IMG/VR virus record: IMGVR_UViG_3300047557_002197 | Span: 1-25,118 of that record | Strand: one strand, 5' to 3' | DNA length: 25,118 nucleotides | DNA from: a virus | In this document: positions 8,423 to 25,057 of the stretch, piece by piece | Layout: each line of letters opens with the position of its first letter | Position numbering within the stretch: position 1 is the first letter of the stretch | Notes under the pieces: model-generated | The model's input: the letters and a program-made list of their open reading frames with translations, nothing else | What the model was told of the DNA's origin: nothing | The model's database searches: none | Program-made: the position numbers and the translations under genes

Positions 8423-9027
8423 TAGATTTTGATACTTGGATTAAACATTATACACCTAAGCCAGTCGAATACGTTGCAACATTTGATCCTTCTACCGGTG
8501 CAGTATTAAGTGTGGGACCATCTCACGCCTTTGAACAAGAAAAAAATAAAATACCGGTAGACAAAGACCTTGCAGAATCTATTATTAATGCAGAAATAAA
8601 AATAAGTTCTTGTGTAGTTGATATAAATTCAAATTCGATAGAGGTAGCTGAAATTAAAAATGTCTATACCATCGATGATGTTCTTCACAGAATTATTTCT
8701 ACAAAATATTCTGAAATAAAAAAACCTGACATTTATCTAACTCACGATTCTAAAAGAAAGATTCTAAAGATCGAATTATCTGAAGAATTTGGAGGAACTA
8801 AAAAGCCCAAGGTTGTAGTAAAAAAGAGAAAAATAGTTTGGGATGGTGACACAGAAATGAATTTTTTAGTTACCGATTACAATGATCCGAACGTGCTTTT
8901 TAAGGTAATTTCTGTTACAATAAATGATCTAGTCGGAAAATCAAAAATCATTAAAGATTTTGATTATGCACAGTTTAGTGTCTATACTAGAAGATTATTT
9001 AAAAATTATGTGATTAACTACAAATGA
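8419..9027 (+). CDS. Conserved phage protein of unknown function, 202 aa
   Basis: I start it at the ATG at 8419, which makes an ATGA overlap like most junctions here. An in-frame GTG at 8410 would add three residues and is less likely. The protein begins MIDFDTWIKHYTPKP, then EYVATFDPSTGAVLSVGPSHAF, a beta-hairpin-like opening. A middle helix has DKDLAESIINAEIKI, a Lys-rich stretch has KKPKVVVKKRKIVWDGD, and a beta-rich end follows. There is no catalytic motif, membrane segment or cysteine cluster. I have an impression of similar proteins near tail genes of marine T4-like phages, without a function. It lies between glycosyltransferase-like genes, so an accessory or acceptor role is possible but unsupported. 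Confidence 0.7.
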   Translation: MIDFDTWIKHYTPKPVEYVATFDPSTGAVLSVGPSHAFEQEKNKIPVDKDLAESIINAEIKISSCVVDINSNSIEVAEIKNVYTIDDVLHRIISTKYSEIKKPDIYLTHDSKRKILKIELSEEFGGTKKPKVVVKKRKIVWDGDTEMNFLVTDYNDPNVLFKVISVTINDLVGKSKIIKDFDYAQFSVYTRRLFKNYVINYK

Positions 9028-9941: not shown

Positions 9942-12855
9942 TATTTTTTACGTTTCTCGTGGATCTGGCAACGACGATGATTGGAAAAAAATCAAATCAA
10001 AATATCCGCTTGCCCAAAGATTATCTAATGTAAATTCCTATGAAGATATAAAAACCAAAGCATTTACAAAGATGTTCTGGGCGATATGGGAAAACGTTGA
10101 TCTCATAGATTCATTTAATCTTTTAGATTATACAGCAACTAAATGGGATGACATGTATGTTCACGTTTTTAAGAACGGTGATTTTTATGACGGCATCTGT
10201 TTATTCCCCAAACAAAAAACAATAAGTCAACGAGAATTTGAAAATAGATTTTTCACGGATAAAAAAGAAATAGATATAATTGCCAGTGTTCCTAAAAAGT
10301 ATGAACAATTTTATATTAATTCTTATGAAGAATATCTCGATGCTAAAAATAAAACAGTAACGGATATGTTTTGGGTAGTATGGAACGACCTAAAGATAGA
10401 AGAAGGATTCGATTTTAATTTTACGGTTCCTAAATATAATACCAATGTAGTTCACATTTTTAAGAATGGAGACTTTTATGATGGTATATGTTTATTTCCT
10501 AAAAATACGACTATAACAAAAAAAGAATTTCAACATAGATTTTTCGCAGAAAAAAAAGAAATCGATATAATCGCTAGTAGGCCAAATCGTTATCATATCT
10601 ATAAACCATCTTCATATAATGAATATATGAAAATCGAAGATGAAATGTTTTGGATAGTATGGCCCAATGTTGATGTCATCAATGATTCTATTTTTGATTT
10701 ATATTTTAGTCATCACAACAGCTATGATAGGCAAGAAAATCATATATTTAAAAATTTGTGCAACGACAAAGAGTCATATCTCAGCGGAGTGATTTTATGC
10801 AGCAAGCACAAAAGGTTGTCTAAAAAAGAATTTGATAGACAATATGCTGTAGATAAAAAAGAATATGATATAATAGCGAGTCGTTATCGTTATCCTATTT
10901 ACGAATTAGATTCTTACGACCGTTATCTAGAAATATGCCAAACAGGACAAAGTAAGATGTTTTGGGGAAAATGGCCCGAAATAGCAATGATAGACAAAAC
11001 TATTTTTGATTTATATTTTGATCCTAATGATGGAAAATACGATCACGATCGAGCTGAAAATCATGTTTTTTTAAACAGATGTTATGATCGAGAATCTTAT
11101 CTTAGTGGTCTTGTTTTATTTTCAAAAGATAAGATTATTTCTAAAAAAGAGTTTGAGAGAAGATATCTTATAGATAAAAAAGAACATGATGTAGTAGTAA
11201 GTAAATTTTGTTATCCTATTTTTAAAATCGAATCGTACGATCAGTATCTAGAAATAACGAAAAATTCTAAGCAACCAATGTTTTGGTGCCAGTGGTCGAA
11301 TATAGAGATAATCGACGAAACTATTTTTGATTTATATTTTGACCCCAATGATGGAAAGTATGATTACGACAGATCAGAAAATCATGTTTTTAAAAATCGA
11401 TGTGATAAGAAAGAATCTTTTTTAAATGGACTGGTATTATTTTCAAAAGATAAGATTATTTCTAAAAAAGAGTTTGAGAGAAAATATCTCATAGATAAAA
11501 AGGAACATGAGATTGTAGCAAGTAAATTTTGTTACCCTATTTTTAAAATTGACGATTATGATGATTATTTGAAAATAATTGAAAGTCAGACACAGCCAAT
11601 GTTTTGGTGTCAATGGCCGAATATAGAAATAATCGATGAAAGTATCTTTGATTTGTATTTTGATCCAAATGATGGAATGTATGATCATGATCGAAATGAA
11701 AATCATGTTTTTAAAAATCTTTGCAATAATAGTCCATCTTTTTTAAATGGATTACTTTTGTGTTCTAAAAATAAAATCATTTCTAAAAGAGAATTTGATA
11801 GAAAATATCTCATAGATAAAAAAGAACACGATAGAACTGTTAGCCGATTTAGATATAATCGATATAATGTAACTTCATATCAACATTATCAAGAAATTTT
11901 AGAAAAAGAAAAACAAAAGTTGTTCTGGGTAATTTGGCCTGAAATAACAGTGATTGATGAAACTGTATTTGATTTGTATTTTGATCCGAACGATGGAAAA
12001 TATGATCACGATCGAAATGAAAATCATACTTTTAAACATTTGTTCAATGACAAAGAAATCTATATAAACAGTTTGGTTTTATTATCTAAAGATAAACCTT
12101 TAAGTCAACGAGAATTTGATCATAGATTTTTGATTACGAAAAAAGAACACGATCGACTAGTATCAATGCACAGACCTTATGATGTTGTGTTTATTTCTTA
12201 TAACGAACCTAACGCTGACGAAAATTATAATAATTTAATAAAAATTTGCCCAAGGGCTAAAAGAGTTCACGGAGTAAAAGGAATACATCAAGCTCACATC
12301 AAGGCAGCATCTTTGTGCGATACAGATATGTTTTGGGTAATAGATGGTGATGCTATGATTGAAAAAGATTTCAATTTTAATTTAGTTATGTCTTCTTATG
12401 ATGTAGATTGCGTACATGTCTGGAGAAGTCGCAATCCGATAAATGATCTTGAATATGGTTACGGTGGAGTTAAATTGTTACCTAGACAAATGGTATTAGA
12501 TATGGATGTTACTACTCCAGATATGACCACCTCTATATCTAAGAAATTTAAAGCCATGGATCGAGTGTCTAACATTAATGCATTTAATACTGATGAATTT
12601 GCTACTTGGAGATCTGCATTTAGGGAGTGCTGTAAATTAGCGAGCCGTATCATAGAAGGTCAATACGAGGAAGAAACGATAGAAAGACTAGATATTTGGT
12701 GCTCTCAGGGAGCAGATAGAAAGTTCGGCCAATGGGCTATCAGCGGTGCTAAACTAGGTAGAGAATATGGATTAGAAAATAAAAATAATCCGGAAGCTCT
12801 AAGAAAAATTAACGATTTTGATTGGTTAAAGAGAGTATTCGATGGAATACAATAG
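9934..12855 (+). CDS. Giant GT-A protein: seven degenerate GT-A repeats plus one intact GT-A domain
   Basis: This 973-residue protein consists of repeats of about 97-109 residues, roughly 1-109, 110-206, 207-307, 308-414, 415-521, 522-628 and 629-735, then an intact GT-A-like domain at 748-973. The intact domain has YDVVFISYNEPNAD, RAKRVHGVKG, MFWVIDGDAMIE (DGD at 804-806), EYGYGGVKLLP and TWRSAFRECCKL, matching the previous gene block by block. Each repeat keeps a shortened version (YDIIAS strand, SYxxYLE helix, MFW strand, an ENHxFKN strand, then a GLVLFSK strand). At the DGD position the repeats read W-E-N, W-N-D, W-P-N, W-P-E, W-S-N, W-P-N and W-P-E. The first Asp is Trp in all seven, so metal-dependent catalysis is unlikely there. 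The repeats may bind glycan or act as a scaffold; that is inference. It overlaps both neighbours. Confidence 0.8.
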   Translation: MYDIFYVSRGSGNDDDWKKIKSKYPLAQRLSNVNSYEDIKTKAFTKMFWAIWENVDLIDSFNLLDYTATKWDDMYVHVFKNGDFYDGICLFPKQKTISQREFENRFFTDKKEIDIIASVPKKYEQFYINSYEEYLDAKNKTVTDMFWVVWNDLKIEEGFDFNFTVPKYNTNVVHIFKNGDFYDGICLFPKNTTITKKEFQHRFFAEKKEIDIIASRPNRYHIYKPSSYNEYMKIEDEMFWIVWPNVDVINDSIFDLYFSHHNSYDRQENHIFKNLCNDKESYLSGVILCSKHKRLSKKEFDRQYAVDKKEYDIIASRYRYPIYELDSYDRYLEICQTGQSKMFWGKWPEIAMIDKTIFDLYFDPNDGKYDHDRAENHVFLNRCYDRESYLSGLVLFSKDKIISKKEFERRYLIDKKEHDVVVSKFCYPIFKIESYDQYLEITKNSKQPMFWCQWSNIEIIDETIFDLYFDPNDGKYDYDRSENHVFKNRCDKKESFLNGLVLFSKDKIISKKEFERKYLIDKKEHEIVASKFCYPIFKIDDYDDYLKIIESQTQPMFWCQWPNIEIIDESIFDLYFDPNDGMYDHDRNENHVFKNLCNNSPSFLNGLLLCSKNKIISKREFDRKYLIDKKEHDRTVSRFRYNRYNVTSYQHYQEILEKEKQKLFWVIWPEITVIDETVFDLYFDPNDGKYDHDRNENHTFKHLFNDKEIYINSLVLLSKDKPLSQREFDHRFLITKKEHDRLVSMHRPYDVVFISYNEPNADENYNNLIKICPRAKRVHGVKGIHQAHIKAASLCDTDMFWVIDGDAMIEKDFNFNLVMSSYDVDCVHVWRSRNPINDLEYGYGGVKLLPRQMVLDMDVTTPDMTTSISKKFKAMDRVSNINAFNTDEFATWRSAFRECCKLASRIIEGQYEEETIERLDIWCSQGADRKFGQWAISGAKLGREYGLENKNNPEALRKINDFDWLKRVFDGIQ
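10855..12138 (+). repeat. Four in-frame tandem repeats of 321 bp within the GT-A repeat gene
   Basis: Repeats 4 to 7 of the encoded protein are each exactly 107 residues, giving a 321-bp period. They share blocks encoding IFDLYFDPNDGKYDHDR, ENHVFKN and KEFERKYLIDKKEH. Repeats 1 to 3 upstream (9934-10854) are shorter, more divergent and not in this period. The equal length suggests the last four arose more recently by unequal recombination or slippage. Confidence 0.8.
11116..11161 (+). repeat. 46-bp exact direct repeat, first copy (second copy 11437-11482)
   Basis: The 46 bases from 11116 to 11161 recur exactly at 11437-11482, a spacing of 321 bp, equal to the repeat unit. They encode the VLFSKDKIISKKEFER block of repeats 4 and 5. 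Synonymous identity over 46 nt, next to diverged flanks, points to recent duplication or gene conversion between these units. Confidence 0.85.
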
Positions 12856-14263
12856 AAATATAAAAGGTAACGAATTAAGAGAAATAAACGGTAGATATGA
12901 ATCTAGGTATCTCGCCGATGCAGAATTCGTATATCAAGAAATTAATAAAATTAGTCCGAGCTTTTGTTTGGCCAAGTGGTTTAATGTTAGTATACATATA
13001 CCAACAGGCAAAACTCATAGTTGTTATCATCCTAGGGCCCATCAAATTCCTTTACAAGAAGTAAAAATTGATGTTAGTGCTTTACATAATACAAAGTATA
13101 AAAAAGAACAAAGACAACTGATGTTAGAGGGCAAGCGTCCCGAGGAATGTAACTTTTGTTGGCAGATAGAAGATAGCGGAAGTCAACTTAGCGATCGTGC
13201 TTATAGAAGCAAGGATGTCTATGAACACGGTTTAATACAAGAAGCATTACAGCTTGGTTCAACGGGAAATGCATTACCCCGATATGTAGAGGTCAATTTT
13301 AATCAAGCCTGTAATTTTCGTTGTAGTTATTGTAGCCCTCATTTATCAACTGCCTGGCAACAAGATGTAGAACGCAATGGTGCATTCATACTAAATGACA
13401 GATGGCATAATGATATTACCTGGTTAAAATCTTTAAATATCGATAACAGTCTAGATAACCCTTATCTTTTAGCATTCTGGAATTGGTTGCCAACAGTATA
13501 TCCTACTCTTCAAACTTTTAGGATGACAGGCGGCGAGCCGCTAATGGATAAGAATACATTCAAAATGTTTGATTATGTAAAAAATAATCCTAAAAAAGAT
13601 CTTCATTTAAGTATAACTTCAAATTGTTGTCCGCCCGGCGATCAATGGTCTAAATTTATGACCAGTCTTAAAGAAATGACTGCTATTGATGCCATTGATC
13701 ATTTTATGCTATTCTGTAGCTTAGACAGTTGGGGATCTCAGGCCGAATACATAAGAAATGGCATGGATTTTAATTTGCTGTATAATAATGTTTGTGATTA
13801 TTTAGAAAATGGAGACAAACACAGTTTAACATTTATCATTACATTCAACGCTTTAAGTTATACAGGATTTCATGTTTATATCGAAAACATTTTAAAATTA
13901 AGAAAAAGATTTAATAATGGCCGCCAGCTAGTCTGGTTCGATGTCCCTCAATTATTAGATCCTGAATTCTTAAATCCAAAGTTATTACCGCATCTTGTAA
14001 CTGAACTTGAAAAAACAGTGGAATTTATGAAGTATAATCCAGAAACTAAATGGAATGAGTTTAAAGGATTTAGCGATTTTGAAATCAGCAAGGTACAAAG
14101 ACTAATAGATTGGATAAAATCTGACACAGCTTTCGATATGAATTTAGCTATGAAAAATTTTTATTTGTTCTTTAGCCAGCATGATCAACGAAGAGGAACA
14201 AATTTTTTAAATACTTTTCCTGAGCTTGAAAATTTTTGGAATGAATGTAAAAAATTAACATGA
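12842..14263 (+). CDS. Radical SAM protein with N-terminal twitch-like Cys region
   Basis: In this 473-residue protein the radical SAM core carries the CX3CX2C motif CNFRCSYC (C157, C161, C164), which binds the catalytic [4Fe-4S] cluster, and GGEP at 230-233 for SAM binding. Before the core is a Cys-containing region: C42, C61 (SCYHPR), C103 and C106 (PEECNFCW), probably an auxiliary-cluster (twitch-type) domain. SLDSWGSQAEYIRNG lies in the second half of the barrel. The C-terminus has DQRRGTNFLNTFPELENF, shared in form with the paralogue at 14892. The start overlaps the previous gene by 14 nt; the stop forms ATGA with the next. The substrate, peptide or sugar, is unknown. The closest relative in the window is the 14892 protein. 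Confidence 0.85.
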   Translation: MEYNRNIKGNELREINGRYESRYLADAEFVYQEINKISPSFCLAKWFNVSIHIPTGKTHSCYHPRAHQIPLQEVKIDVSALHNTKYKKEQRQLMLEGKRPEECNFCWQIEDSGSQLSDRAYRSKDVYEHGLIQEALQLGSTGNALPRYVEVNFNQACNFRCSYCSPHLSTAWQQDVERNGAFILNDRWHNDITWLKSLNIDNSLDNPYLLAFWNWLPTVYPTLQTFRMTGGEPLMDKNTFKMFDYVKNNPKKDLHLSITSNCCPPGDQWSKFMTSLKEMTAIDAIDHFMLFCSLDSWGSQAEYIRNGMDFNLLYNNVCDYLENGDKHSLTFIITFNALSYTGFHVYIENILKLRKRFNNGRQLVWFDVPQLLDPEFLNPKLLPHLVTELEKTVEFMKYNPETKWNEFKGFSDFEISKVQRLIDWIKSDTAFDMNLAMKNFYLFFSQHDQRRGTNFLNTFPELENFWNECKKLT

Positions 14264-14889
14264 ATAAAATATTTGTATTCGGAGACAGTTTCAGTACCTC
14301 ATCTAGGCATAATTGGTCTTGGATTAATCGTCTTTCCGAAAAATATAATTTATCAAATTATTCAGCAGCAGGACTAAGTTGTTCTAAAATTTTAGATTTA
14401 TTTCAATCTAAATTTTTATTCAACGAAATAGAAAAAAGTTTTGTAATATTTTGTTTGAGCGATAAATCGAGAGATTATATGAATATTGAAGATCCGGAAT
14501 GGGATTTGAAATCTAAATCTATATATAGACAAAGTATTTCTAAAATTTATGAAATTTTAAACGATAAAAATATAAATCATGTGATAGTTTGGGGATTTCC
14601 CAGCGATTACGCAGAAGTAAATGGATGGTTAAATAAAAAATTTGTTTATGTTGATAAAAATACTTACAAATATTTTATTGAATTTTCTAATCAAATAAAA
14701 CCGGCATTGATATATTACTCGAGACAAGAGTGTAAACACATTGTAAATGAAAAGAAATTGTGTGAGTATTTTTCAAATGATCGGAGACCTAATCATATTG
14801 CTAATGAAGAGATTCATAAAAAATTAGCGGATGTAGTTTCAAAGTTTATTAATAAAGAAATAACTGGTAGCGTAAATTTAGAGGCATAA
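14260..14889 (+). CDS. SGNH/GDSL hydrolase-like protein, atypical active site
   Basis: This 209-residue protein opens MNKIFVFGDSFS with the nucleophile-block motif GDS (Ser10). Block II is probably NYSAAGLSCSKI (about 33-44). Near the C-terminus the block V equivalent reads DRRPNHIANEEIHKKLAD: the usual Asp-x-His-Pro becomes D174-R175-R176-P177, with a His at 179. The catalytic His seems displaced or lost. SGNH enzymes hydrolyse or transfer acyl esters on sugars, lipids or peptides; activity here is uncertain. There is no signal peptide. An ATGA overlap joins it to the radical SAM gene before, and only 2 nt separate it from the next radical SAM gene, so the three are probably coupled. Confidence 0.65.
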   Translation: MNKIFVFGDSFSTSSRHNWSWINRLSEKYNLSNYSAAGLSCSKILDLFQSKFLFNEIEKSFVIFCLSDKSRDYMNIEDPEWDLKSKSIYRQSISKIYEILNDKNINHVIVWGFPSDYAEVNGWLNKKFVYVDKNTYKYFIEFSNQIKPALIYYSRQECKHIVNEKKLCEYFSNDRRPNHIANEEIHKKLADVVSKFINKEITGSVNLEA

Positions 14890-14891
14890 TA

Positions 14892-16253
14892 ATGGATCAA
14901 AGTAGAGTACATTTTATTAAAAATGTTAGAGATAGATTAAACACAGTAGGGCAAGGATTCTGTGCAATGAAATGGTTGCATCAAACTTTGTATCTACATA
15001 CAGGAGATAATCACAGTTGTTATCATCCTAGACCCCATCACATCCCTTTAGAAGAAATCGCCGAAGATCCTAGTGCATTGCATAATACTAAATGGAAAAA
15101 ACAACAACGAAAAACAATGTTAGAAGGAGGCCGTCCTGAAGAATGTTATTATTGTTGGAATATTGAAGATTTACCAGGCGAGCATCTCAGCGATCGTATG
15201 ATACACAGCTCAAGCGATTTCGCTGAACCAATGATTGAAAAATTGGCAGAACTTCCCTGGGATGCTCCTATTAATCCTCGTTATTTAGAAGTTAGCTTTG
15301 GCAACGGTTGTAACTATCGATGCGGATATTGCTGTCCTCAAGCTAGCACTATGTGGATGGAAGAAATTAAGAAACATGGTAATTACGATTTAACATATAA
15401 TCAATACGGCATTGAGTTTTTAAAATCTGGTAATTATTATGGACCTAAGGATGAAAATCCTTACATTGAGGCTTTTTGGAAATGGTGGCCAAGTTTAAGA
15501 AAAGATCTGCATACGTTACGAATTACCGGCGGCGAGCCATTAATGAATCCCGGAGCTATGCAATTTTTTGATCTACTAGAAACAGAACCTGCTCCACATT
15601 TAGAAATTACTTTAAACAGTAATTTAGGTGTTACGTTCGATAAAGTTGATAGATTGATCGAGAGAGTAAAAAGTCTTGTTAAACAAAAGAAGATTCGAAA
15701 GTTTAGTTTTTTTACCAGTATCGATAGTTGGGGAGAACAAGCTGAATACATGCGCACTGGACTAAAATGCGATCATTGGGAACGCAATATGATCGAAGTT
15801 ATAAAAGCCGGAGCAACAGTTAATCTAATGTGTACTTATAATGTTCTTTGTGTAACTAATTTCCAGAAATTATTGCACAAAGTTATAGAATGGAGAGAAA
15901 AGTTCGGTTTTCAATCTGTGGCTTTCGACACACCTTATCTTAAAGAACCCCCTCATTGGATGATAAACATACTACCGGAAGAATTTATTAAATATCAAGA
16001 AGAAACATTGCAATTCATTGTAGATAATAAACAATGGTTTACTGATGTTGAATATGAAAAGATGCTCCGTGTAACTAATTATATGAAAGAAAATCCTGTT
16101 AGTAAAGAAAAAATTCAACAAGGTCGCAGGGATTTTTATAGTTTCTTTACTGAAAATGATCGTAGATTGGGAACAAATCTTTTAGAAGTATTTCCGGAGT
16201 ACACGGATTTTTATCATCAGTGTAAAGATTTTTATGACAATTATGGAAAATAG
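14892..16253 (+). CDS. Radical SAM protein with N-terminal twitch-like Cys region (paralogue of the 12842 gene)
   Basis: In this 453-residue protein the cluster motif is CNYRCGYC (C140, C144, C147) and GGEP is at 213-216. The N-terminal Cys set is C24, C43 (SCYHPR), C85 and C88 (PEECYYCW). It shares many blocks with the gene two upstream: ALHNTK, MLEGxRPEEC, SxDSWGxQAEYxR and a C-terminal DRRLGTNLLEVFPEY. The two are clearly paralogues, perhaps for successive steps or two related substrates. A good Shine-Dalgarno AGAGG (14880-14884) lies 7 nt before the ATG, which overlaps a tandem TAATAA at the end of the previous gene. The gene overlaps the following SGNH-like gene by 20 nt, or 11 nt if the later start is used. 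Confidence 0.85.
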   Translation: MDQSRVHFIKNVRDRLNTVGQGFCAMKWLHQTLYLHTGDNHSCYHPRPHHIPLEEIAEDPSALHNTKWKKQQRKTMLEGGRPEECYYCWNIEDLPGEHLSDRMIHSSSDFAEPMIEKLAELPWDAPINPRYLEVSFGNGCNYRCGYCCPQASTMWMEEIKKHGNYDLTYNQYGIEFLKSGNYYGPKDENPYIEAFWKWWPSLRKDLHTLRITGGEPLMNPGAMQFFDLLETEPAPHLEITLNSNLGVTFDKVDRLIERVKSLVKQKKIRKFSFFTSIDSWGEQAEYMRTGLKCDHWERNMIEVIKAGATVNLMCTYNVLCVTNFQKLLHKVIEWREKFGFQSVAFDTPYLKEPPHWMINILPEEFIKYQEETLQFIVDNKQWFTDVEYEKMLRVTNYMKENPVSKEKIQQGRRDFYSFFTENDRRLGTNLLEVFPEYTDFYHQCKDFYDNYGK

Positions 16254-17019
16254 AAGATTTTTTTCTTATGGCTGTAGTTTTACATCTTATGCTCATCCCA
16301 CTTGGGCTGATTTAGTAGGCATAAAATTTGAGGAATACTATAATTACGGTCGACCAGGAGCAGGAAATATGTATATTTTTAATGCACTTATGGAATCGGA
16401 TCAGCATCATAGAATAGGTAAAGATGATCTAGTTATCATACAATGGACCTGTTCCTCAAGAGAAGATAGATATAAAGATAATAATTGGATATGTAAGGGA
16501 GGAGTATTCAATCTCTATCAAAAAAGAAAAGACTTTGAAAAATATTTTGATTTTAAGGGATTTGTCATAAGAGATCTAGCAGCTATTAAAGCGGCTAAAA
16601 AATTTTTAGATTATATTGGATGCGAATATTATTTTTTATCGATGGTTCCCATAACCACAAATAATATGTATGACGATCTAAGAGGTCAAACGATTGAAAC
16701 ATCTACCATCGATGCAGCTGAAGTTTATAAAGATATTTTGGATACAATTAAAAGTGATTATGCTACGATAATGGGTGAATACAAAAAATATAGACCCAAA
16801 GTTATTAATAACATAACAATAATGGACAATCATCCTTTGCCTACAGAACACTATGATTATTTAGAAAAAGTACTGCCTCAAGTTCTTCCTGGACCTAGAG
16901 ATATCGCAGAAAATCTCGATAGAGAATTATTTTCAATATATCGAACACACCATCAAGGATGGACTTATGAATTCAAAGATATACTAAAAGGTAAAAAAAA
17001 TCTTAAGGAAAGATTATGA
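16234..17019 (+). CDS. SGNH/GDSL hydrolase-like protein (GCS variant)
   Basis: This protein has 261 residues from the ATG at 16234; an in-frame ATG at 16243 would give 258 residues (MENRRFFSYG) and is equally possible, since neither has a strong Shine-Dalgarno. The nucleophile block reads SYGCSFTS: Ser15 is present but the usual Asp before it is Cys14. Block II is GRPGAGN (39-45), block III probably VIIQWT (67-72), and block V MDNHPLPTEHY has D198 and H200 in the DxHP arrangement. So Ser, Asp and His are all present. It is probably an esterase or acyltransferase on a glycan or peptide. It overlaps the radical SAM genes at both ends, giving a second radical SAM-SGNH pair. Confidence 0.65.
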   Translation: MTIMENRRFFSYGCSFTSYAHPTWADLVGIKFEEYYNYGRPGAGNMYIFNALMESDQHHRIGKDDLVIIQWTCSSREDRYKDNNWICKGGVFNLYQKRKDFEKYFDFKGFVIRDLAAIKAAKKFLDYIGCEYYFLSMVPITTNNMYDDLRGQTIETSTIDAAEVYKDILDTIKSDYATIMGEYKKYRPKVINNITIMDNHPLPTEHYDYLEKVLPQVLPGPRDIAENLDRELFSIYRTHHQGWTYEFKDILKGKKNLKERL

Positions 17020-18230
17020 TTAACGAACAGAATAAAGATACTTGGTGTGTAAATGCAGATCATGCTATGAGCGGAAATAATACCGGCACAACTAAAATTT
17101 GTTGCATGTATAGAAATGAAAATCTAACTCATACATTAGGTGTCCATACAATCAAAGAAAATTTTAATCAGAAAAACTTTCAACGAGCTAGAAAAGATCT
17201 GGCAGCCGGAATTCGTCATAGTCATTGTAGCTGGTGTTTTGAAGAAGAAGATGCAGGTCGTAAAAGTAAAAGATTACGCGATAACGAAAAATACTTTGAT
17301 TGGCTGAGAAAAGGAAATGCTCCTTTTGAGGGATTGGCTAAGGTTGAATTAAATTTGGGGAATACATGTAATTTAAAATGTAGAACTTGTGCTCCTCATA
17401 GTAGTAGTACCTGGATGCAGGAATATTATGACATCTATGAAAGTAAAAGATATCCGACTTTTAAATTATATTCCGAAGACATGAAAAAATATCATCAACA
17501 TTACGATGATGAAAGTCCATTCTGGGATGATCTAGAAGACAATCTTTCCACTATTAAGCAGTTTGATTTTTATGGCGGTGAACCTTTCATGAGCAAAAAG
17601 ATGTGGAAGGTGTTAGAAGTGGCTGTAGAAAAAGGCTATTCTAAAGACATGGAAGTACACTATGCTACTAATGGCACACAGTGGCCAGAAAAAAATGTAG
17701 AAATTTTTAAACATTTTCGTCATGTTCATATCAGTTTTAGTATCGACGGTATTAGAGATGGATTTACTTATATGAGATATCCCGCAGTCTGGGAAGAAGC
17801 AAAATCTAATATGATAAAGGCTCGAGAATTTAATGCTAGAACTTCGAATCTATATTTAGGATGGTGTATTACATTAAGTTCATTAAACATATGGAGTTTG
17901 CCTGACATACTTAAAGAACATTCTGAAAATTTTAAAGATTTTGGACCATATCTTAATTTAGTACATGGACCTATTTGGTATAATCTTACGCAGTTGCCAG
18001 AGAACATCAAAGGTAAAGTAATTGAAAGATTGGAATCAATTTCTCAGGATACTGTTGATCATCACATGTATAATTACCATTTACCGGGTGTGATCAATTA
18101 TATTAAACAGGGCGTGCCTCACGCTAAGAATTGGGAGAAATTTCTTGAATATACCAAAGTACATGATGAATATCGCGGACAAAATTTTTCACAAGTTTAC
18201 CCAGAATATTCAAAAATCATCGGAATTTAA
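17016..18230 (+). CDS. Radical SAM protein with N-terminal twitch-like Cys region
   Basis: In this 404-residue protein the cluster motif is CNLKCRTC (C118, C122, C125) and GGEP is at 187-190 (FYGGEPFM). The N-terminal cysteines are C11, C29/C30 (KICCMY), C71 and C74 (HCSWCFEEED), again upstream of the core. The barrel has SIDGIRDGFTYMRYPAVW. The C-terminal box DEYRGQNFSQVYPEY resembles the box in the 12842 and 14892 proteins, so it belongs to the same wider family though it is more diverged. ATGA overlap with the SGNH-like gene; its stop is 1 nt from the next ATG. The substrate is unknown. No membrane segment is visible. Confidence 0.85.
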   Translation: MINEQNKDTWCVNADHAMSGNNTGTTKICCMYRNENLTHTLGVHTIKENFNQKNFQRARKDLAAGIRHSHCSWCFEEEDAGRKSKRLRDNEKYFDWLRKGNAPFEGLAKVELNLGNTCNLKCRTCAPHSSSTWMQEYYDIYESKRYPTFKLYSEDMKKYHQHYDDESPFWDDLEDNLSTIKQFDFYGGEPFMSKKMWKVLEVAVEKGYSKDMEVHYATNGTQWPEKNVEIFKHFRHVHISFSIDGIRDGFTYMRYPAVWEEAKSNMIKAREFNARTSNLYLGWCITLSSLNIWSLPDILKEHSENFKDFGPYLNLVHGPIWYNLTQLPENIKGKVIERLESISQDTVDHHMYNYHLPGVINYIKQGVPHAKNWEKFLEYTKVHDEYRGQNFSQVYPEYSKIIGI

Positions 18231-18231
18231 A

Positions 18232-19503
18232 ATGCAAAATTTCTTTAATCATGAACAATTATGTCAACTTCATATAGAATTGACTAATGCCTGTAATGCA
18301 GCGTGTCCAATGTGTACGAGATTTCATATAAACAGTCCGTTGATAAGACCGGATCTAGAAATAGATCAGATCACGATAGAAAAATTTAAGAAATATTTTC
18401 CGCCTGATATTTTAAAAAAATGTGAGGTGATTTTATTCTGTGGTGTACATGGCGATCCGGGAATGGCTAGAGATTTGTACGAGATATGCGAATACATAGC
18501 CGAAGAAAGCCCAATGACTACTGTAAGAATGAATACAAATGGCGGTATGAGAAAGCCGGAGTTTTGGGCCAAGATGGGAGAGCTTTTCGGTAAAAAACTA
18601 AGAGATCACTGGTCTTGGTCTTGTACTTTTAGTATTGACGGTTTAGAAGATACTAATCATTTATACCGTCGTAACGTAGAATGGTCAAAACTAATGGCCA
18701 ATGTTCAAGCATTTATCAATGCCGGTGGTCGAGCAGAGTGGGATTATCTAATATTCAAACATAACGAACATCAAATAGACGAAGCCAAAGATCTTTCTAA
18801 AAAATTAGGATTTTATTCATTCGTTCCTAAAAAAGCATTAGGCGTTGACAACGGAACTAGTTTGATCAGAATGAGTGCAATGAATAGAGAAGGAAAACTC
18901 GATTATTGGATAGATGCTCCGGTAGATCCAAAAAATAGAAATCTCGAAAATCCTAAAGGACCAGTAGAAGAAAGATTTTGGGAATTTGATATAGATCATT
19001 ACAAGAGATTAAAAGAATCTAAACAACCGCATTGGGATCATAATAAAGCAGTATCTAATGTTTATGATATGCTCAAACGAGAAGATAATTCAACTTTGGA
19101 TCGAGCTGAAATTAAATGTAAAGCAGAAACAATGACCGGCGGAAAAGAAATTTTTGTCGATCAAAAAGGTCGGGTGATTCCATGTTGTTACATAGGTACA
19201 CATTTGAACGGTGTTCACAGCGATAGTCAAAGTCTGCAATTACATCATGAAATGCAAAAATATGGTTGGGATAAATTCGATCTAAACAAGCATTCTTTAA
19301 AAGAAATTTTAGATGCCGGGCATTTAGATAGAGTATTTACAGATTCGTGGAATAAACCTAGCTGTGCCGAAGGCAAGATGGCATATTGTGCAAATATATG
19401 CGGAACCTATAGTAGAGTAGACAGGATTTATACACATGAAAAAATGGATGATAAATCTCGAAATTGGAGAATAGAAAAGAATTTTGGGATTAAAGCAGAA
19501 TGA
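18232..19503 (+). CDS. Radical SAM protein with C-terminal SPASM/twitch-like domain
   Basis: I start it at the ATG at 18232 (423 residues), 1 nt after the previous stop; an upstream in-frame TTG at 18145 would lie deep inside the previous gene. The core motif comes early: CNAACPMC (C21, C25, C28). The SAM-binding motif is unusual, FCGVHGDPGMA in place of GGEP. VRMNTNGG and FSIDG are typical barrel strands. The C-terminal region has C296, C318 and C319 (VIPCCY), C378, C386 and C390 (CAEGKMAYCANIC), a SPASM or twitch pattern that holds auxiliary clusters. Unlike the other radical SAM genes here, the auxiliary region lies after the core. Many SPASM enzymes modify peptides, some modify sugars; the substrate is unknown. 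Confidence 0.85.
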   Translation: MQNFFNHEQLCQLHIELTNACNAACPMCTRFHINSPLIRPDLEIDQITIEKFKKYFPPDILKKCEVILFCGVHGDPGMARDLYEICEYIAEESPMTTVRMNTNGGMRKPEFWAKMGELFGKKLRDHWSWSCTFSIDGLEDTNHLYRRNVEWSKLMANVQAFINAGGRAEWDYLIFKHNEHQIDEAKDLSKKLGFYSFVPKKALGVDNGTSLIRMSAMNREGKLDYWIDAPVDPKNRNLENPKGPVEERFWEFDIDHYKRLKESKQPHWDHNKAVSNVYDMLKREDNSTLDRAEIKCKAETMTGGKEIFVDQKGRVIPCCYIGTHLNGVHSDSQSLQLHHEMQKYGWDKFDLNKHSLKEILDAGHLDRVFTDSWNKPSCAEGKMAYCANICGTYSRVDRIYTHEKMDDKSRNWRIEKNFGIKAE

Positions 19504-20657
19504 AAAAAGATGTATTTTGTTCATTACCTTTCACGGAAATATTTTTAGGTCCAGATGGAGACATCAAAACTTGTTGTTCTGCTAATGCAAGTTTGGGAAG
19601 TTTACATAGGAACACTATAGAAGAAATATTACAAAATGATACAGCAAAAAAAGTTAGAAAAGATCTGTTAGAAAATCGTTGGCCTTCTCAATGTGCTCAA
19701 TGCAAAAAACAAGAAGAGCAAGGAGCTAGATCTGAAAGATTGTCCGATAGAGAAGAGTTGTCTCAACAAATAAAAAATATAGACGAGAATACATTTGTTT
19801 TAAAACGTCTAGATTTAAGATGGAGTAATACTTGCAATCTATCTTGTGTTTACTGTTATGAATATTTTAGTTCTAAGTGGAGTGATATAAAAGGCATAAA
19901 GATTAATACTGTTAACGAACAAAATGAAGAAAGTCTTTTTAAATTTATAGAAAAGAATATCAATAATGGTTATATGTCAAGTGGAAATATATTGCTTGGG
20001 GGAGAACCTTTACTTCAAAAACAGAACAGTAGACTTATAGATCTATTATCTGGTCATGGTTTTTATATTTTAACTAATTTATCTGTACCTATAAAAACAA
20101 ACAAAATAGCTGAAAAATTATTAAATGAACCAACGATGCACTGGGGAGTAAGTTTTGAAACTGTAGGATCTCGATTTGAGTACGTAAGAAGAGGTGCTTC
20201 TTGGAAAACATTTAACGAAAATATAGACTATGTCAATGAAAATAAAAAAGAAAATTCTAGACTAGAAGCACATTCGTTATATTCCGTGTACAGTGCTTTT
20301 AATTTAATAGAATTTTATGAATTTATATTAGAGAAAAGATTTAGTAATGTTTTTTGGAATCTATTAGAATCTTCTGGAAACAATGTCGATGTTAATGTAA
20401 TGAATATGTCTCGGGAGATGAAAAAAAGAGCCATAAAAGAGATAGACAAATGTCAAGAAAGATTTCCTGATGCTCCCGGATTACATTGGTTGATCGATAT
20501 TAAAAACAAATTAAAAATCGATCAGAATAAATTTAATTTAAAGAAAAACAATAATATTCAAATAATCGATGATATAAAAAATATCGAAAGTCAACTTAAA
20601 ATGAGTGAATATTCATTTGAAAAATTATGGCCAGAGGTTTATAACAGCTTATGTTAA
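19500..20657 (+). CDS. Radical SAM protein with N-terminal twitch-like Cys region
   Basis: In this 385-residue protein the core motif is CNLSCVYC (C112, C116, C119) and GGEP is at 167-170. The N-terminal auxiliary Cys set is C7 (FCSLPF), C25/C26 (IKTCCSA), C65 and C68 (QCAQCKKQEE). The strand before the auxiliary cluster reads FLGPDGDIKTCC, a form often seen in SPASM-like domains but here N-terminal. FETVGSRFEYVRRGASW matches the SxDxxxxxFxYxRxGxxW motif of the other members. The C-terminus is Lys/Asn-rich and lacks the RGxNFxxxFPE box, so it is a more distant member. ATGA overlap with the previous gene; 7-nt overlap with the next. Confidence 0.85.
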   Translation: MKKDVFCSLPFTEIFLGPDGDIKTCCSANASLGSLHRNTIEEILQNDTAKKVRKDLLENRWPSQCAQCKKQEEQGARSERLSDREELSQQIKNIDENTFVLKRLDLRWSNTCNLSCVYCYEYFSSKWSDIKGIKINTVNEQNEESLFKFIEKNINNGYMSSGNILLGGEPLLQKQNSRLIDLLSGHGFYILTNLSVPIKTNKIAEKLLNEPTMHWGVSFETVGSRFEYVRRGASWKTFNENIDYVNENKKENSRLEAHSLYSVYSAFNLIEFYEFILEKRFSNVFWNLLESSGNNVDVNVMNMSREMKKRAIKEIDKCQERFPDAPGLHWLIDIKNKLKIDQNKFNLKKNNNIQIIDDIKNIESQLKMSEYSFEKLWPEVYNSLC

Positions 20658-21544
20658 TTTACTGTAATGGTGATAGTTTTACAGCAGGAGTAGGATTAGG
20701 GGATTATTTAATTCCAACATACCCCGGTGTTTTTAGTGAAGATGAATTAGAATCTAAAAAAATAGAGATTTCAAAATTTTCAGACACAAAATCTTTCTTT
20801 TATAGAAAAAAGTTTGTAAATTATGATGAAGTGGTAGATAATAAAACTGTGGCAAAATTTTATGATGATACAAATCAAAGTAGAGTAGTATATGAAAATG
20901 TTTATTCTATAGTAGAAAAAAACTTATCTTATCCAGCACAATTAGAAAAAATAGATAAATCGATTAAAACTATAAATGCAGCAAGAGCTGGCTCTAGTAT
21001 GGGCGGTATATGTTACAGAACTATTTTGGATTTATTAAATTATAAATCTCAAGGCATTAAAATAGATCTTGTAATTATACAACTAACTTCTATCGGAAGA
21101 TACGAAATATTTGATACAAATCAACACGATTTAATGATAGATAGACCATTATCTGTTTTTACTGATCCGTTAGATATTAATATATCTAAAGCGATTATTT
21201 CAAGGTATACCAATGAGGATTATCTTATCAAATTTTTATTTCATTTAGCATCTCTTAAAGAAACAGTAATTTCTATAACCGGAAAATCTCCTTTGATTAT
21301 AGATTCAATGAATGGCGAATGGATATTAACTAATATATCAAGTGCTAGACATTATATAAAAAATAACAATAAAGAATGTATAGATTATTTTGAAAATTTA
21401 GTCAATCATTCTATGATAAATTATTCTAAATTAAACTTAATGAGAAAATGTGCGAAAAAAATTCAAAGACCTTTCGAACATGATGGACATTATCAAATTG
21501 AAGTTCATAAATTAACAGCTCAAGAAATATATAAATCTTTATGA
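20651..21544 (+). CDS. SGNH/GDSL hydrolase-like protein with complete catalytic set
   Basis: This 297-residue protein has MLIYCNGDSFTAG with Ser9 as the presumed nucleophile. A long insertion (about 20-95) follows before block II, NAARAGSSMGGI (about 109-120), and block III IIQLTSIGRY. Block V reads HDGHYQIEVHKLTAQEI with D278 and H280. Ser, Asp and His are all present, so it is the best candidate for an active hydrolase or acyltransferase among the four. It is longer than usual because of the early insertion. There is no signal peptide, so the site of action is probably cytosolic. The start overlaps the radical SAM gene by 7 nt, and the stop forms ATGA with another SGNH-like gene. Confidence 0.7.
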   Translation: MLIYCNGDSFTAGVGLGDYLIPTYPGVFSEDELESKKIEISKFSDTKSFFYRKKFVNYDEVVDNKTVAKFYDDTNQSRVVYENVYSIVEKNLSYPAQLEKIDKSIKTINAARAGSSMGGICYRTILDLLNYKSQGIKIDLVIIQLTSIGRYEIFDTNQHDLMIDRPLSVFTDPLDINISKAIISRYTNEDYLIKFLFHLASLKETVISITGKSPLIIDSMNGEWILTNISSARHYIKNNNKECIDYFENLVNHSMINYSKLNLMRKCAKKIQRPFEHDGHYQIEVHKLTAQEIYKSL

Positions 21545-22260
21545 AAAAAATATGGGCATATGGCGATAGTTTTGTAGCAGGTGACCAGGATATACCTGGA
21601 AGAGTAGATGCTATCGAAGAAAACTCTAATTATAACCGATATAACATTAGCTTCGTATCTCATCTGGCAAAAAAACTTGAAGTTGAATTAACGAACCGAG
21701 CTATTAGTGGTTGCAGTAATTTTGTCCAATTGGATAGACTTTGGATGGACGCCCCCGATATTAAAAATACAGATATAGTAATTTTTGGTTTAACTACATC
21801 GTGGAGAGATAGGTTTACTCTTCCGCATACTTGTAAAGAATATTTTTTGGATACTCGAGGACCTTCTATATTAGATCGAGGGTTAGCTAGTAATCCACAC
21901 AAAATACCCTTAGTTGATCTTTTTTATGTATTAAGTAGTATAGAAAAGATAGAAAAAGTATATAATTTAAAAGTAGTTAAATTAAATTTGTTTCATGATA
22001 CTATATTAGAGGCATCCGAAGCAGAGAAAAAAATATTTGATTTTGAAAATTTTATAGGTTTAGGTGTTTCTGGAAATACATTGATGGAAGTTCTCACAGA
22101 AAATTGGGGTAATTCGAAGAAAATTATAGATCATAGCAAGTGGTCTCCGTCTAAAGAACATCGACATCTTTTTACTAGATTCTCTCATCCTAGCATAGAA
22201 GGTCACAAATTAATCGCCGATTGGTTAGAAAAAGAATTAATCAAGATGGGAATAATATGA
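21541..22260 (+). CDS. SGNH/GDSL hydrolase-like protein, block V Asp missing
   Basis: This 239-residue protein opens MKKIWAYGDSFVAG with Ser10. Block II is NRAISGCSNF (52-61) and block III probably FGLTTSWRDRF. Block V reads RFSHPSIEGHKLIADWL with H216 and P217, but the position two before the His, normally Asp, is F214. The Ser-His pair is kept; the Asp may be supplied elsewhere or be missing. ATGA overlaps join it to both neighbours. It directly follows another SGNH-like gene, so the two may form a complex or act on two positions of one product. It sits just before the glycosyltransferase gene. Confidence 0.7.
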   Translation: MKKIWAYGDSFVAGDQDIPGRVDAIEENSNYNRYNISFVSHLAKKLEVELTNRAISGCSNFVQLDRLWMDAPDIKNTDIVIFGLTTSWRDRFTLPHTCKEYFLDTRGPSILDRGLASNPHKIPLVDLFYVLSSIEKIEKVYNLKVVKLNLFHDTILEASEAEKKIFDFENFIGLGVSGNTLMEVLTENWGNSKKIIDHSKWSPSKEHRHLFTRFSHPSIEGHKLIADWLEKELIKMGII

Positions 22261-23036
22261 GAGAACTCACATTATCTAAAAATTGGAGGAAAGGTCTAGG
22301 CACAGAATTAATGGTGTTTTGTGTTTTATTAGATTATGGAGTAAAAAAACTTAATATAAGCGAACATCTTAATAATAAAAATTTTGAAAAATATAAAAAA
22401 ATTTTTAACGTTTCGGATGAACAGTTGATAATAAATCATACATCTAATTTATTAAATGAAATAGAACCTAGCGATCTTTTCAAAGTTTATAGTCCTTACA
22501 TAAAATTACCAAATACTAAAAAAGATAAAAAATATATTGGTATAGCTGGATATCAAGATTCTAAAATATACGAAAATCCTGGATTTGTATATCCTGAATC
22601 TAAAATTTATTCTATCGATGAATATTCTAAAATATATAAATTGATAAAAACATACGGGTATGAAGTTATTACTTTAGATAACAAAGATGTTTCATTGGAA
22701 GATAAAGTTCATCTAATTTCTGAATATTGTGAGTGCGTTATTGGTTATGAAGGCGGAACAGCGCATCTTTGTCATATGTTAAATATTCCATACATTATGC
22801 TACCGTGGCGTGTGACATTTGATGCAAAATTATTGCACTTAGACGAAAAAACTTATTTTTTAGACAGTCTTGATCATTTATTATCGTGGAAGAAAGAAGA
22901 TTTAGATCTTTGTATTAAGAAATTACATAACGGTAATACTAATAATGAGTTGGTTTTAAATCCAGATTTAATAAGAAATAGAATTAAAGGTCATCCGAGA
23001 AGTATCGAAGAAATTAAATTTTTAGGGCAAAGATGA
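22257..23036 (+). CDS. Short GT-B (GT9-like) glycosyltransferase-like protein
   Basis: I start it at the ATG at 22257 (259 residues, MRELTLSKNW), which gives an ATGA overlap with the previous stop; an upstream in-frame start at 22221 lies inside the previous gene. The N-terminus has GLGTELMVFCVLLDYG, like the Rossmann start of GT9-type heptosyltransferases. The second half has KKYIGIAGYQ, a helix, YGYEVITLD, then LISEYCECVIGYEGGTAHLCHMLNIPYIML. The GYEGGTAHL stretch (163-171) matches the donor-binding GPxxGPxHLA region of GT9 and related GT-B enzymes. At 259 residues it is shorter than the usual 330-370, with a small N-terminal domain. It is cytosolic by sequence. Donor and acceptor are unknown. 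Confidence 0.65.
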   Translation: MRELTLSKNWRKGLGTELMVFCVLLDYGVKKLNISEHLNNKNFEKYKKIFNVSDEQLIINHTSNLLNEIEPSDLFKVYSPYIKLPNTKKDKKYIGIAGYQDSKIYENPGFVYPESKIYSIDEYSKIYKLIKTYGYEVITLDNKDVSLEDKVHLISEYCECVIGYEGGTAHLCHMLNIPYIMLPWRVTFDAKLLHLDEKTYFLDSLDHLLSWKKEDLDLCIKKLHNGNTNNELVLNPDLIRNRIKGHPRSIEEIKFLGQR

Positions 23037-25057
23037 AAAAAATTTTTAATATCGTTAGAAAATCTATGCAGGCTCCTGTAGATTTAGATGACAAGCATCT
23101 TAAAATAATGGAAGCTATTTTGCCCTATGCTAGATCTACCCCTCAAAAGAATCTCACGGAAGTAGTAATACATAACGTTAGTAGAAAAACTAAAGTAAGA
23201 TTTTTTCTACTGCCAGAATGGGCAGTAAATTTTCCTCCTTATAATATTGCAAGATTAGTTTCAGTTGCCAAAGAAGCAGGTTATAGTGCTGACGGCGTTG
23301 ATCTTAATATCAAATGCTATAGAGATAAAAAAAATTGGGATATAGACTTTGATCCATGGCACGGTAGTAAAGAATGGAGATGGATGGGTCAATCATATCA
23401 TCAATATCTTCACAAGTATGTTCAGCCCATAATGGAAGATTGTATTCGAAAAATAGAAGAAGATAAAATTGATGTTGTGGGATTTAGTTTATATTATTGC
23501 AATCAAGAACCCACAGATTGGATGGCAGCAGAAATTAAAAAACGTTATCCTCATATAAAGATCATGGTAGGTGGCCCGCAGTGTCACGCTTTTCCTCCTG
23601 GCCCAGATAAACCATATTATGATTATGTGGTTTCTGGTGAGGGCGAAGAAATGTTGCTTAAAATATTGGACGATATTGAAAATGAAAAATATCCTGAGCA
23701 ACAGACTACTATTATTCAAACCGAAGGCCAAAGATTAGATTTAGATAAATTGCCCTGGGCAGATTACAGTCATTTTGATTTGAATGATTATGTGATGCCT
23801 AACGGAGTTAATGCTGAATTTAGTCGAGGCTGTACTGCCAAATGTGTATTTTGCAGCGAGACCCATTTCTGGAAATATAGGGGTCGAAGTGCGATCAATG
23901 CATTGAATGAAGTCGTAAATTTGTATAATACCTATGGCATAAATTTTATTTGGTTCTTAGATAGTCTAGTAAATGGCAATCTTAAAGAATTGCGGGCATT
24001 TTGTAAAGGAGTAATAGCCAGCGGTATTAAGATACAGTGGACTGGATATGCCAGGTGCGATGAGAGAATGGATTTTGATTATTACAAAGATCTCGCTGGT
24101 TCTGGATGCAAGATGTTAAGTTACGGAATAGAATCTGGATCCGATAAAGTTCTTATCGATATGGATAAGCGTGTAACAGTAAAAGAGATCGAACAAAATT
24201 TACATCATGGATCGATAGTAGGTGTTGAAGCACATACCAATTGGATTATAGGATTTCCTACAGAAGAATATCAAGATTTTTACAATTCTATGAATTTAAT
24301 ATGGCGGAATAGACTTTATATAAAAATAGTAGCCTGTGGTCATGGATTTACGGAACCTCCCGATACCATACTTTCTCAAAATTCAGAAAAGTTCGGTATG
24401 ATTAAAGCCTATTATATGAACAACTGGATTACAGGAGATTTTAAGAATTCTAAAGTACATAGAGCTATAAGATTAGTCACTTTTAACATATTTTTAGAGC
24501 ATTGTCCCGGCAAGGACTCTTCATTTGCTAATTTTGATACTAAAAAATATCATAAGATAAAATTCCATAAATCGTCTATATTGAATCAAATAGATTATGA
24601 AACTTTTGATTTTTCTATAATCAAGCCCAACATAAATCCGTTAGCAGATAGTGTGGTAAATGAAATTTGGCCATTGTTAAGATTGCTATGGCGATCGAGG
24701 GGAGGATATGATATCAAGATCAACATAACTCCTCAAGATATCAAGAATGAATTCGGAGATAGACTAGGATGTAATTTTACAGCCATTTGCGAATTCACTA
24801 TTGATAAAGAAGGTAAGTGGAAAGCTGATTTTGATTTTAAATTTGAAGAAGATGCCGATCCATGGAGATATCAAGATTATTCTAGAGAAAAATCGATGTC
24901 GGCTAAAAGAGCAAGAATATTAGCTATTCCTGGTAGTGACGGAGAAGTGACTTGGAATATGGATATCTATAAGAAACATTTAGAACTTATAGAAGAACTA
25001 CAAAAGAAAAATCTAAGTTTTAGTTATAGATATAAAAATGAAGGTCAATGGATTTAA
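23033..25057 (+). CDS. B12-binding-type radical SAM protein
   Basis: This 674-residue protein has, after about 55 N-terminal residues, a Rossmann-like cobalamin-binding domain: LLPEWAVNFPPYNIARLV, VDVVGFSLYYCNQ, HIKIMVGGPQCHAFP and VVSGEGEEML (GEGE 202-205). No DxHxxG His motif is visible, common in the B12-radical SAM class. The radical SAM motif is SRGCTAKCVFCSE (C267, C271, C274), followed by GRSAINALNEV, YGIESGSDKVL and IIGFPTEEYQDF, typical of this class. A C-terminal extension of about 190 residues has no motif I know. Members often methylate unactivated carbons or rearrange; some act on lipids or sugars. ATGA overlap with the glycosyltransferase gene. It is the last gene of the coupled run. 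Confidence 0.8.
   Translation: MKKIFNIVRKSMQAPVDLDDKHLKIMEAILPYARSTPQKNLTEVVIHNVSRKTKVRFFLLPEWAVNFPPYNIARLVSVAKEAGYSADGVDLNIKCYRDKKNWDIDFDPWHGSKEWRWMGQSYHQYLHKYVQPIMEDCIRKIEEDKIDVVGFSLYYCNQEPTDWMAAEIKKRYPHIKIMVGGPQCHAFPPGPDKPYYDYVVSGEGEEMLLKILDDIENEKYPEQQTTIIQTEGQRLDLDKLPWADYSHFDLNDYVMPNGVNAEFSRGCTAKCVFCSETHFWKYRGRSAINALNEVVNLYNTYGINFIWFLDSLVNGNLKELRAFCKGVIASGIKIQWTGYARCDERMDFDYYKDLAGSGCKMLSYGIESGSDKVLIDMDKRVTVKEIEQNLHHGSIVGVEAHTNWIIGFPTEEYQDFYNSMNLIWRNRLYIKIVACGHGFTEPPDTILSQNSEKFGMIKAYYMNNWITGDFKNSKVHRAIRLVTFNIFLEHCPGKDSSFANFDTKKYHKIKFHKSSILNQIDYETFDFSIIKPNINPLADSVVNEIWPLLRLLWRSRGGYDIKINITPQDIKNEFGDRLGCNFTAICEFTIDKEGKWKADFDFKFEEDADPWRYQDYSREKSMSAKRARILAIPGSDGEVTWNMDIYKKHLELIEELQKKNLSFSYRYKNEGQWI

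Follow-up and report, generated by a model that had tools for sequence, protein, structure and literature searches.

Gene content and extent of the operon

This study concerns an array of genes for radical S-adenosylmethionine (rSAM) enzymes on the 25,118-base IMG/VR virus contig IMGVR_UViG_3300047557_002197 (positions 1 to 25,118), the whole of which is called the window below. Eleven open reading frames (ORFs), all on the plus strand and open at the coordinates given in Table 1, fill positions 12842-25057 and encode six rSAM enzymes (R1 to R6), four SGNH-like proteins (S1 to S4) and one protein with a GT-B-type donor domain, with intergene distances of -20 to +2 nucleotides (nt). This composition, the order of the genes and their overlapping or nearly overlapping arrangement had been predicted earlier from the sequence, and the ORFs, family scores, profiles and structure models agree on them. 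For two genes a start other than that in the ORF list is most likely, i.e. ATG 18232 rather than TTG 18145 for R4 (leaving a gap of +1 nt) and ATG 22257 rather than TTG 22221 for the GT-B-type gene (gap of -4 nt).

The unit does not begin at 12842, as had been proposed, but at 6379. Upstream of R1, gaps of -14, -8, -4, -13, -4 and -4 nt lead back to gene 6379, so that no gap between 6379 and 25057 exceeds 2 nt, and gene 6379 itself is preceded by 59 free bases. The array had also been placed directly downstream of the tail-fibre genes; it does lie downstream of them, but is separated from them by 6.5 kb (6379-12855) of other genes, among which several are glycosyltransferase-like. The operon thus contains, besides the 11 array genes, the GT8-like gene 6726, the transferase-like gene 7583 and the GT-A-like genes 9024 and 9934. 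An evident signal peptide or transmembrane segment was found in none of the operon enzymes.

In front of gene 6379 lies a late-promoter-like element: the window has TAAATA at -33 of this gene, and 17 of 21 non-redundant orthologues have it between -33 and -30. The full T4 late consensus TATAAATA occupies the promoter place in 8 of the 29 distinct regions upstream of gene 6379 orthologues. It occurs 33 times in 698 kb of sequence from relatives, 23 of these copies being within 60 nt upstream of a gene. This total is low compared to the 119.5 copies expected, but comparable AT-rich words are equally scarce, and the evidence from this word therefore lies in its position only. T4-type late promoters drive virion genes. 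Because the element is positioned in this way and the genes are continuous from 6379 onwards, the simplest reading is that 6379-25057 is a single predicted operon of 18.7 kb with a late-type promoter.

A second positioned late-promoter-like site was seen in six loci (L006, L018, L044, L056, L064 and L076), where TATAAATA lies 15-16 nt upstream of the called start of the conserved opposite-strand gene c13 (minus strand). In a distant branch (L071, L083) the promoter place has, by eye, a sigma-70-like sequence instead. Scans for sigma-70 and terminator signals gave no excess over shuffled sequences, and these candidates were set aside.

Table 1. Features of the predicted operon in the window and the basis of their assignment
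Feature	Coordinates	Strand	Basis or remark
Late-promoter-like element GCTAAATA, TAAATA at 6346-6351	6344..6351	+	6/8 positions vs T4 late consensus TATAAATA
First operon gene, 116 residues, kept in relatives	6379..6729	+	ORF list, synteny
GT8-like glycosyltransferase	6726..7586	+	Weak Pfam PF01501 match below cut-off; conserved synteny
Probable glycosyltransferase-like protein	7583..8422	+	No family match; assignment inferred
Protein kept in relatives	8410..9027	+	Conserved synteny
GT-A-like protein	9024..9941	+	40% identical to Bdellovibrionota chromosomal protein encoded near rSAM gene
Seven tandem repeats and terminal GT-A-like domain (residues 749-972)	9934..12855	+	47% identical to adjacent chromosomal protein
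R1, N-terminal-twitch rSAM enzyme	12842..14263	+	NF033640 match; 37% paralogue of R2
S1, SGNH-like, GDSF nucleophile motif	14260..14889	+	Profile link to S4
R2, N-terminal-twitch rSAM enzyme	14892..16253	+	NF033640 match; best conserved rSAM of the array
S2, predicted SGNH fold, GCSF replacing GDSF	16234..17019	+	AlphaFold2 model, profile link to S4
R3, N-terminal-twitch rSAM enzyme	17016..18230	+	NF033640 match
R4, rSAM enzyme, weak C-terminal SPASM match	18232..19503	+	ORF list start TTG 18145
R5, N-terminal-twitch rSAM enzyme	19500..20657	+	NF033640 match
S3, SGNH-like, GDSF motif, no family match	20651..21544	+	Profile link to S4
S4, SGNH/GDSL-like, GDSF motif	21541..22260	+	Weak GDSL matches
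GT-B-type donor-domain protein, GT9/UDP-GlcNAc 2-epimerase-like fold	22257..23036	+	Model; ORF list start TTG 22221
R6, cobalamin-binding class B-type rSAM enzyme	23033..25057	+	B12-binding and rSAM domains

Conservation and variation among viral loci

A query of viral contigs with R2 yielded 188 relatives, of which 80 were looked at and 40 were left after removal of near-identical R2 sequences; both the use of R2 as query and the ends of contigs bias this set. R1 is found directly upstream of R2 in 35 of the 40 non-redundant loci, R3 and R4 follow R2 in 26 of the 34 loci with enough sequence, and an SGNH gene occurs near R2 in 18 of these 34. Synteny is conserved in viral contigs, and the case named in the original prediction as contrary to it, related phages with these genes scattered singly, was not encountered: R1-R2(-R3-R4) travel together in these loci, which were gathered by R2 similarity. 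The CxxxCxxC motif, present once in each of R1 to R6, is kept in 318 of 318 rSAM copies of the examined loci. Ratios of nonsynonymous to synonymous change (pN/pS), computed with saturated dS, are 0.09-0.11 for R2, 0.14-0.19 for R1 and R4, and 0.17-0.20 for R6 when compared to its own nearest relatives; for S1-S3 they are 0.4-0.9. Judged by these ratios, R1, R2, R4 and R6 are under strong purifying selection, and the rSAM core is the constrained part of the array while the SGNH part is variable. Conservation over 40 non-redundant loci together with purifying selection makes the array more than a chance assembly, and by its gene order R1-R4 is an established, conserved viral module.

The gene content 3' of R4 differs between phages, R5, S3, S4, the GT-B-type gene and R6 being freely swapped. 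Genes found in their place encode a carbamoyltransferase, Methyltransf_13/14 (sugar C-methyltransferase) and Methyltransf_24 proteins, an NAD-epimerase, a DUF6492 protein and further SGNH-like proteins. In many loci this variable part is followed by a conserved block on the other strand.

The phage that carries the operon belongs to a T4-superfamily jumbo-phage lineage of large viruses of aquatic bacteria. A T4-type capsid gene was present in 4 of the 12 relatives' contigs examined, and a 281-kb relative has a capsid protein 66-72% identical to those of the jumbo phages Phosso, PA5oct, Vibrio 2.275.O and GAP32. Searches for cultured relatives by tblastn with R2 and R6 gave just partial matches (24-28%). 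Two records contain other islands. In the 281-kb record, NF033640 has 18 matches, and about a dozen rSAM genes form a second island (L132, L133; 226-263 kb), which also includes SGNH, epimerase-type, 2-oxoglutarate (2OG)-oxygenase and amidinotransferase/arginine-deiminase-like genes. In a 98-kb phage record (L134, 70-85 kb), rSAM genes were seen by eye together with PP-loop ATPase-like, nitroreductase-like and adenylate-ligase-like ORFs, possibly a further biosynthetic island.

The encoded enzymes

Four of the rSAM enzymes match NCBIfam family NF033640 (N_Twi_rSAM) well above its curated cut-off of 170 bits, i.e. R1 (306 bits), R2 (307), R3 (313) and R5 (212). To our knowledge, this family has been given a name but no known reaction. 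R4 scores 42 bits, under the cut-off, and is filed outside N_Twi_rSAM as an rSAM enzyme with a weak SPASM match; a PDB profile search with R4 gave no match. In the R1/R2 group, Cys 24, 43, 85 and 88 (R2 numbering) are kept without exception in phages and bacterial chromosomes alike, as are the rSAM cysteines, and the four N-terminal cysteines fit the predicted auxiliary cluster of N_Twi_rSAM. In the PDB comparison, R3 resembles SkfB. R6 combines a B12-binding domain (PF02310, 45.4 bits) with an rSAM core (PF04055, 48.4 bits), both over the Pfam cut-offs. It scores best against ApyD and rSAM_ocin_1, which are enzymes for ribosomally synthesised and post-translationally modified peptides (RiPPs), and against PhpK, and remains far under the curated cut-offs of the named B12-rSAM subfamilies (ApyD, PhpK, rSAM_ocin_1 and others; best 108 of 750).

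Among the SGNH-like proteins, only S4 has GDSL family matches, which are weak, and a PDB profile search with S4 gave nothing significant. Profile comparison to S4 gave 96% for S1, 89% for S3 and a weaker 63% for S2. The AlphaFold2 model of S2 (pLDDT 75) retrieved SGNH hydrolases exclusively at the top of the structure list (best 1vjg, Z 9.9); its modelled fold is that of SGNH proteins, and S1 and S3 are placed by their predicted profile relation to S4 only. Common to S1-S4 are the GDSF/GCSF block, a conserved glycine segment after this block and a C-terminal histidine. Of the catalytic residues, the serine and the C-terminal histidine are kept; the spacing of the aspartate differs, and in S4 it is not evident.

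The GT-B-type protein has no Pfam or NCBIfam match over cut-off, and its PDB profile search gave nothing significant. In its model (pLDDT 70), residues 80-231 match the C-terminal donor domain of GT9 and UDP-GlcNAc 2-epimerases (Z 10.0); the N-terminal part, where a second Rossmann-like domain would lie, is short and uncertain. The 9024 protein is up to 93% identical among phages. Each of the seven repeats of the 9934 protein, of about 100 residues, resembles a shortened version of its GT-A-like end domain in which FWxxW replaces the acidic motif.

Chromosomal counterparts

In one scan of bacterial genomes, relatives of R1 and R2 (36-46% identity) were found mainly in Bdellovibrionota, which is no proof of the host. 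Chromosomal members occur in both the R1 clade and the R2 clade of the tree, to be viewed with caution in view of the long branches. A Bdellovibrionota R1-R2 pair (L094) is located among genes for a DegT aminotransferase, a nucleotidyltransferase and GDP-mannose 4,6-dehydratase, and other R1/R2 relatives (L098) lie near an ABC-2 exporter pair. At L150, homologues of the 9024 protein (40%) and of the 9934 end domain (47%) are adjacent, in the phage order, ahead of a twitch rSAM gene whose product is 47% identical to that of a gene in the second phage rSAM island, and at L151 a carbamoyltransferase gene adjoins rSAM genes. These neighbourhoods argue for a single system that unites radical chemistry and glycosyl transfer.

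Some bacterial genomes are very rich in such genes. The Bdellovibrionota-type genomes G021 (L088, L149-L151) and G023 (L093, L152) have 33 and 26 N_Twi_rSAM matches, in arrays, and the G021 islands also contain 2OG-oxygenase-like, Asp/Asn hydroxylase, amidinotransferase-like and carbamoyltransferase genes. In a 2.9-Mb Elusimicrobia metagenome-assembled genome (G025), 86 such matches were counted, many in open frames of 700-1200 residues (L100, L107, L153, L154); those read in L107 and L154 start with TPR-looking repeats.

Proposed function and alternatives

The gene content, order and continuity, the conservation and selection, the position of the late-type promoter, the lack of evident membrane segments and the chromosomal counterparts lead us to prefer, tentatively, a late cytosolic glycan-tailoring operon that would likeliest decorate virion proteins. 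As for the substrates, reactions, acceptor and benefit that we infer, the soluble enzymes of the 18.7-kb late operon would make and attach a multiply modified sugar or short glycan. The twitch-type R1-R3 and R5, the SPASM-like R4 and the cobalamin enzyme R6 would act on the sugar by radical chemistry (oxidation, epimerisation, deoxygenation, C-methylation), acyl groups would be attached or taken off by the SGNH proteins, and sugar transfer would fall to the GT8-, GT-A- and GT-B-like proteins. Sugar chemistry is favoured by the glycosyltransferase-like genes in the operon, by sister cassettes with carbamoyltransferase, methyltransferase or epimerase genes and by the chromosomal nucleotide-sugar cluster of Bdellovibrionota; the original prediction of a modified sugar or glycopeptide gains support as to glycan synthesis, and both the product and the glycopeptide option stay putative. 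Late-type expression and soluble enzymes make cytosolic acceptors late in infection more likely, which would point to virion proteins over host surface or DNA; the acceptor would likeliest be the phage's own virion, with fibre or fibre-adjacent proteins first. According to the available text of two reports, mycobacteriophages glycosylate capsid and tail-tube proteins (PMC12363180, PMC12619734). A bolder version, in which a relay of six rSAM enzymes builds a glycan of a chemistry new to viruses, put on the virion, and in which the rSAM arrays of Bdellovibrionota represent the same core pathway with gene exchange, seems doubtful to us.

Several findings weigh against this glycan-tailoring interpretation. 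The SGNH genes are variable and missing from about half of the loci, 6726 and 7583 are assigned as glycosyltransferases on weak or inferred grounds, the late promoter of the window fits the consensus at 6/8 positions only, and peptide maturases are frequent among the named rSAM families closest to R6 and R3. In L061, L070, L074, L075, L077 and L080, moreover, the module lies in other neighbourhoods, without the genes from 6379 to the GT8-like gene. Closeness to the usual fibre region is thus common but not obligatory, and a tail-fibre link as such, part of the original prediction, is unsupported because some phages hold the module away from tail-fibre genes.

The main rival, which we regard as unlikely, is that the rSAM enzymes act directly on virion proteins, altering amino-acid side chains as RiPP maturases do, with the SGNH and glycosyltransferase-like proteins in secondary tailoring. 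The best scores of R6, the SkfB likeness of R3 and cassettes of rSAM/SPASM genes in cultured jumbo phages, by tail-fibre or structural genes and with a protein ending in (CHxS)3, all speak for it. A (CHxS) tail is lacking, however, in the window and its relatives, the surroundings are glycan-like rather than RiPP-like, and the operon gaps of at most 2 nt leave no space for a precursor gene inside, although a distant precursor is possible; no RiPP precursor gene beside a maturase was found within 6379-25057, nor a CHxS-type tail. As candidate peptide substrates, the C-termini of genes 4434 and 5366 were rejected: they are similar between phages but have no cysteine or repeat motif. A different acceptor is assumed if the operon changes the host surface polysaccharide during infection, for instance to block superinfection. 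Chromosomal relatives that are located in nucleotide-sugar loci or close to an ABC-2 exporter fit this, and glycosyltransferases of the pelagimyophage host-recognition cluster are read that way in the available text of PMC7029224, but the operon has no membrane-bound transferase, flippase or exporter and no evident signal peptides, and a late-type promoter is late for excluding competitors, which makes this quite improbable. We give still less credit to a linked cargo island without a single pathway that hitchhikes in a variable region: the free exchange of the 3' half and the quite different partners in other rSAM islands of the same phages would agree with it, whereas the joint occurrence of R1-R2-R3-R4 under purifying selection over wide divergence, and R1-R2 pairs in bacterial chromosomes as well, would not.

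Aminoglycoside-type pathways combine the twitch rSAM dehydrogenase BtrN, the cobalamin rSAM enzyme GenK, a TobZ-type carbamoyltransferase and an amidinotransferase. The enzyme combination seen here resembles them, rSAM islands in a relative and in Bdellovibrionota include amidinotransferase-like genes, and a carbamoyltransferase lies beside rSAM genes in both; yet the window lacks amidinotransferase and carbamoyltransferase genes and the operon an exporter, and a diffusible aminocyclitol- or aminoglycoside-like metabolite, without evident benefit to a lytic phage, is very improbable. Least probable of all is hypermodification of DNA, in which phage bases would be changed by radical chemistry and glycosyl transfer as a defence against restriction. 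Phage glycosyltransferases that hypermodify DNA are described in the available text of PMC12619734, but a late-type promoter speaks against early or middle expression, genes for base hydroxylation or nucleotide synthesis were not recognised in the operon, and the chromosomal counterparts are located in non-viral glycan contexts. The literature searched for rSAM enzymes with O-antigen, SGNH proteins or DNA hypermodification held nothing on point.

If the product is indeed a virion glycan, phages would make sugars by radical chemistry, the operon would provide new enzymes of the rSAM and sugar-related kinds, and the gathering of rSAM genes at host-recognition regions would be explained. The analysis supplies a defined, conserved unit under selection, with its limits, likely time of expression and chromosomal counterparts.

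Comparison with known systems

The chromosomal arrays of Bdellovibrionota (G021, G023) and Elusimicrobia (G025) are like the operon in having R1/R2 relatives, the GT-A-like pair and a carbamoyltransferase nearby, and differ in being chromosomal, without tail genes and with many more rSAM copies (26 to 86 matches).

Cassettes of another kind were seen in cultured jumbo phages. In Phosso (L145:17999-26148) and Atu_ph07 (L146:18811-25549), a homologous fibre gene is soon followed by rSAM/SPASM genes, accompanied by genes for a cupin and for a protein whose end is CHxSCHxSCHxSRSRR; in SURPRISE13 (L148:4451-10996; close relatives FLC6/FLC8) and pPa_SNUABM_DT01 (L155:5480-12937), tails of the same kind are carried by different proteins, next to a cupin and an rSAM gene. 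The order is cupin, rSAM/SPASM maturase and a protein with a lineage-varying body and a (CHxS)3-like C-terminus ending in SRxRR or ARGRR, and suggests that a phage protein, perhaps one of the virion, undergoes RiPP-type or His-Xaa-Ser-like modification. We know of no description of this cassette, and no homologue of the Phosso CHxS protein was found in viral contigs. Like the operon, these cassettes have rSAM genes by structural genes, and those of Phosso and Atu_ph07 occupy the site that follows the homologous fibre gene; they differ in their SPASM-type rSAM enzyme, cupin and Cys-His-Ser-tailed protein, and in that no N_Twi_rSAM match over cut-off, SGNH protein or glycosyltransferase was recognised in them.

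The original claim that no phage pathway of this composition has been described stands for a worked-out pathway, but rSAM arrays near tail regions have been reported, in rSAM-rich large phages, i.e. Aeromonas phage 332-Vera (PMC12390700), the T4-like TARA_ERS488813_N000010 (PMC5332604) and pelagimyophages (PMC7029224). The available text of these reports terms phages with many rSAM genes highly unusual (PMC12390700), discusses the 12 rSAM genes of the TARA genome under iron-sulfur metabolism (PMC5332604) and offers no function for the arrays. All three resemble the operon in having many rSAM genes in one large phage, 332-Vera and the pelagimyophages also in having them in or next to the tail-fibre region; the difference from the operon is that neither SGNH/glycosyltransferase interleaving nor a promoter, a conserved core or a chromosomal counterpart is mentioned in that text. 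The mycobacteriophages Che8, Corndog and Myrna have their own glycosyltransferases acting on virion proteins, and the operon has glycosyltransferase-like genes; in the available text of that report (PMC12363180) no rSAM or SGNH partner is mentioned, and the virion target of the operon is a predicted one. Although it fits neither the island reports nor those on virion glycosylation fully, the operon is best filed as a variant of the already reported rSAM-rich phage island.

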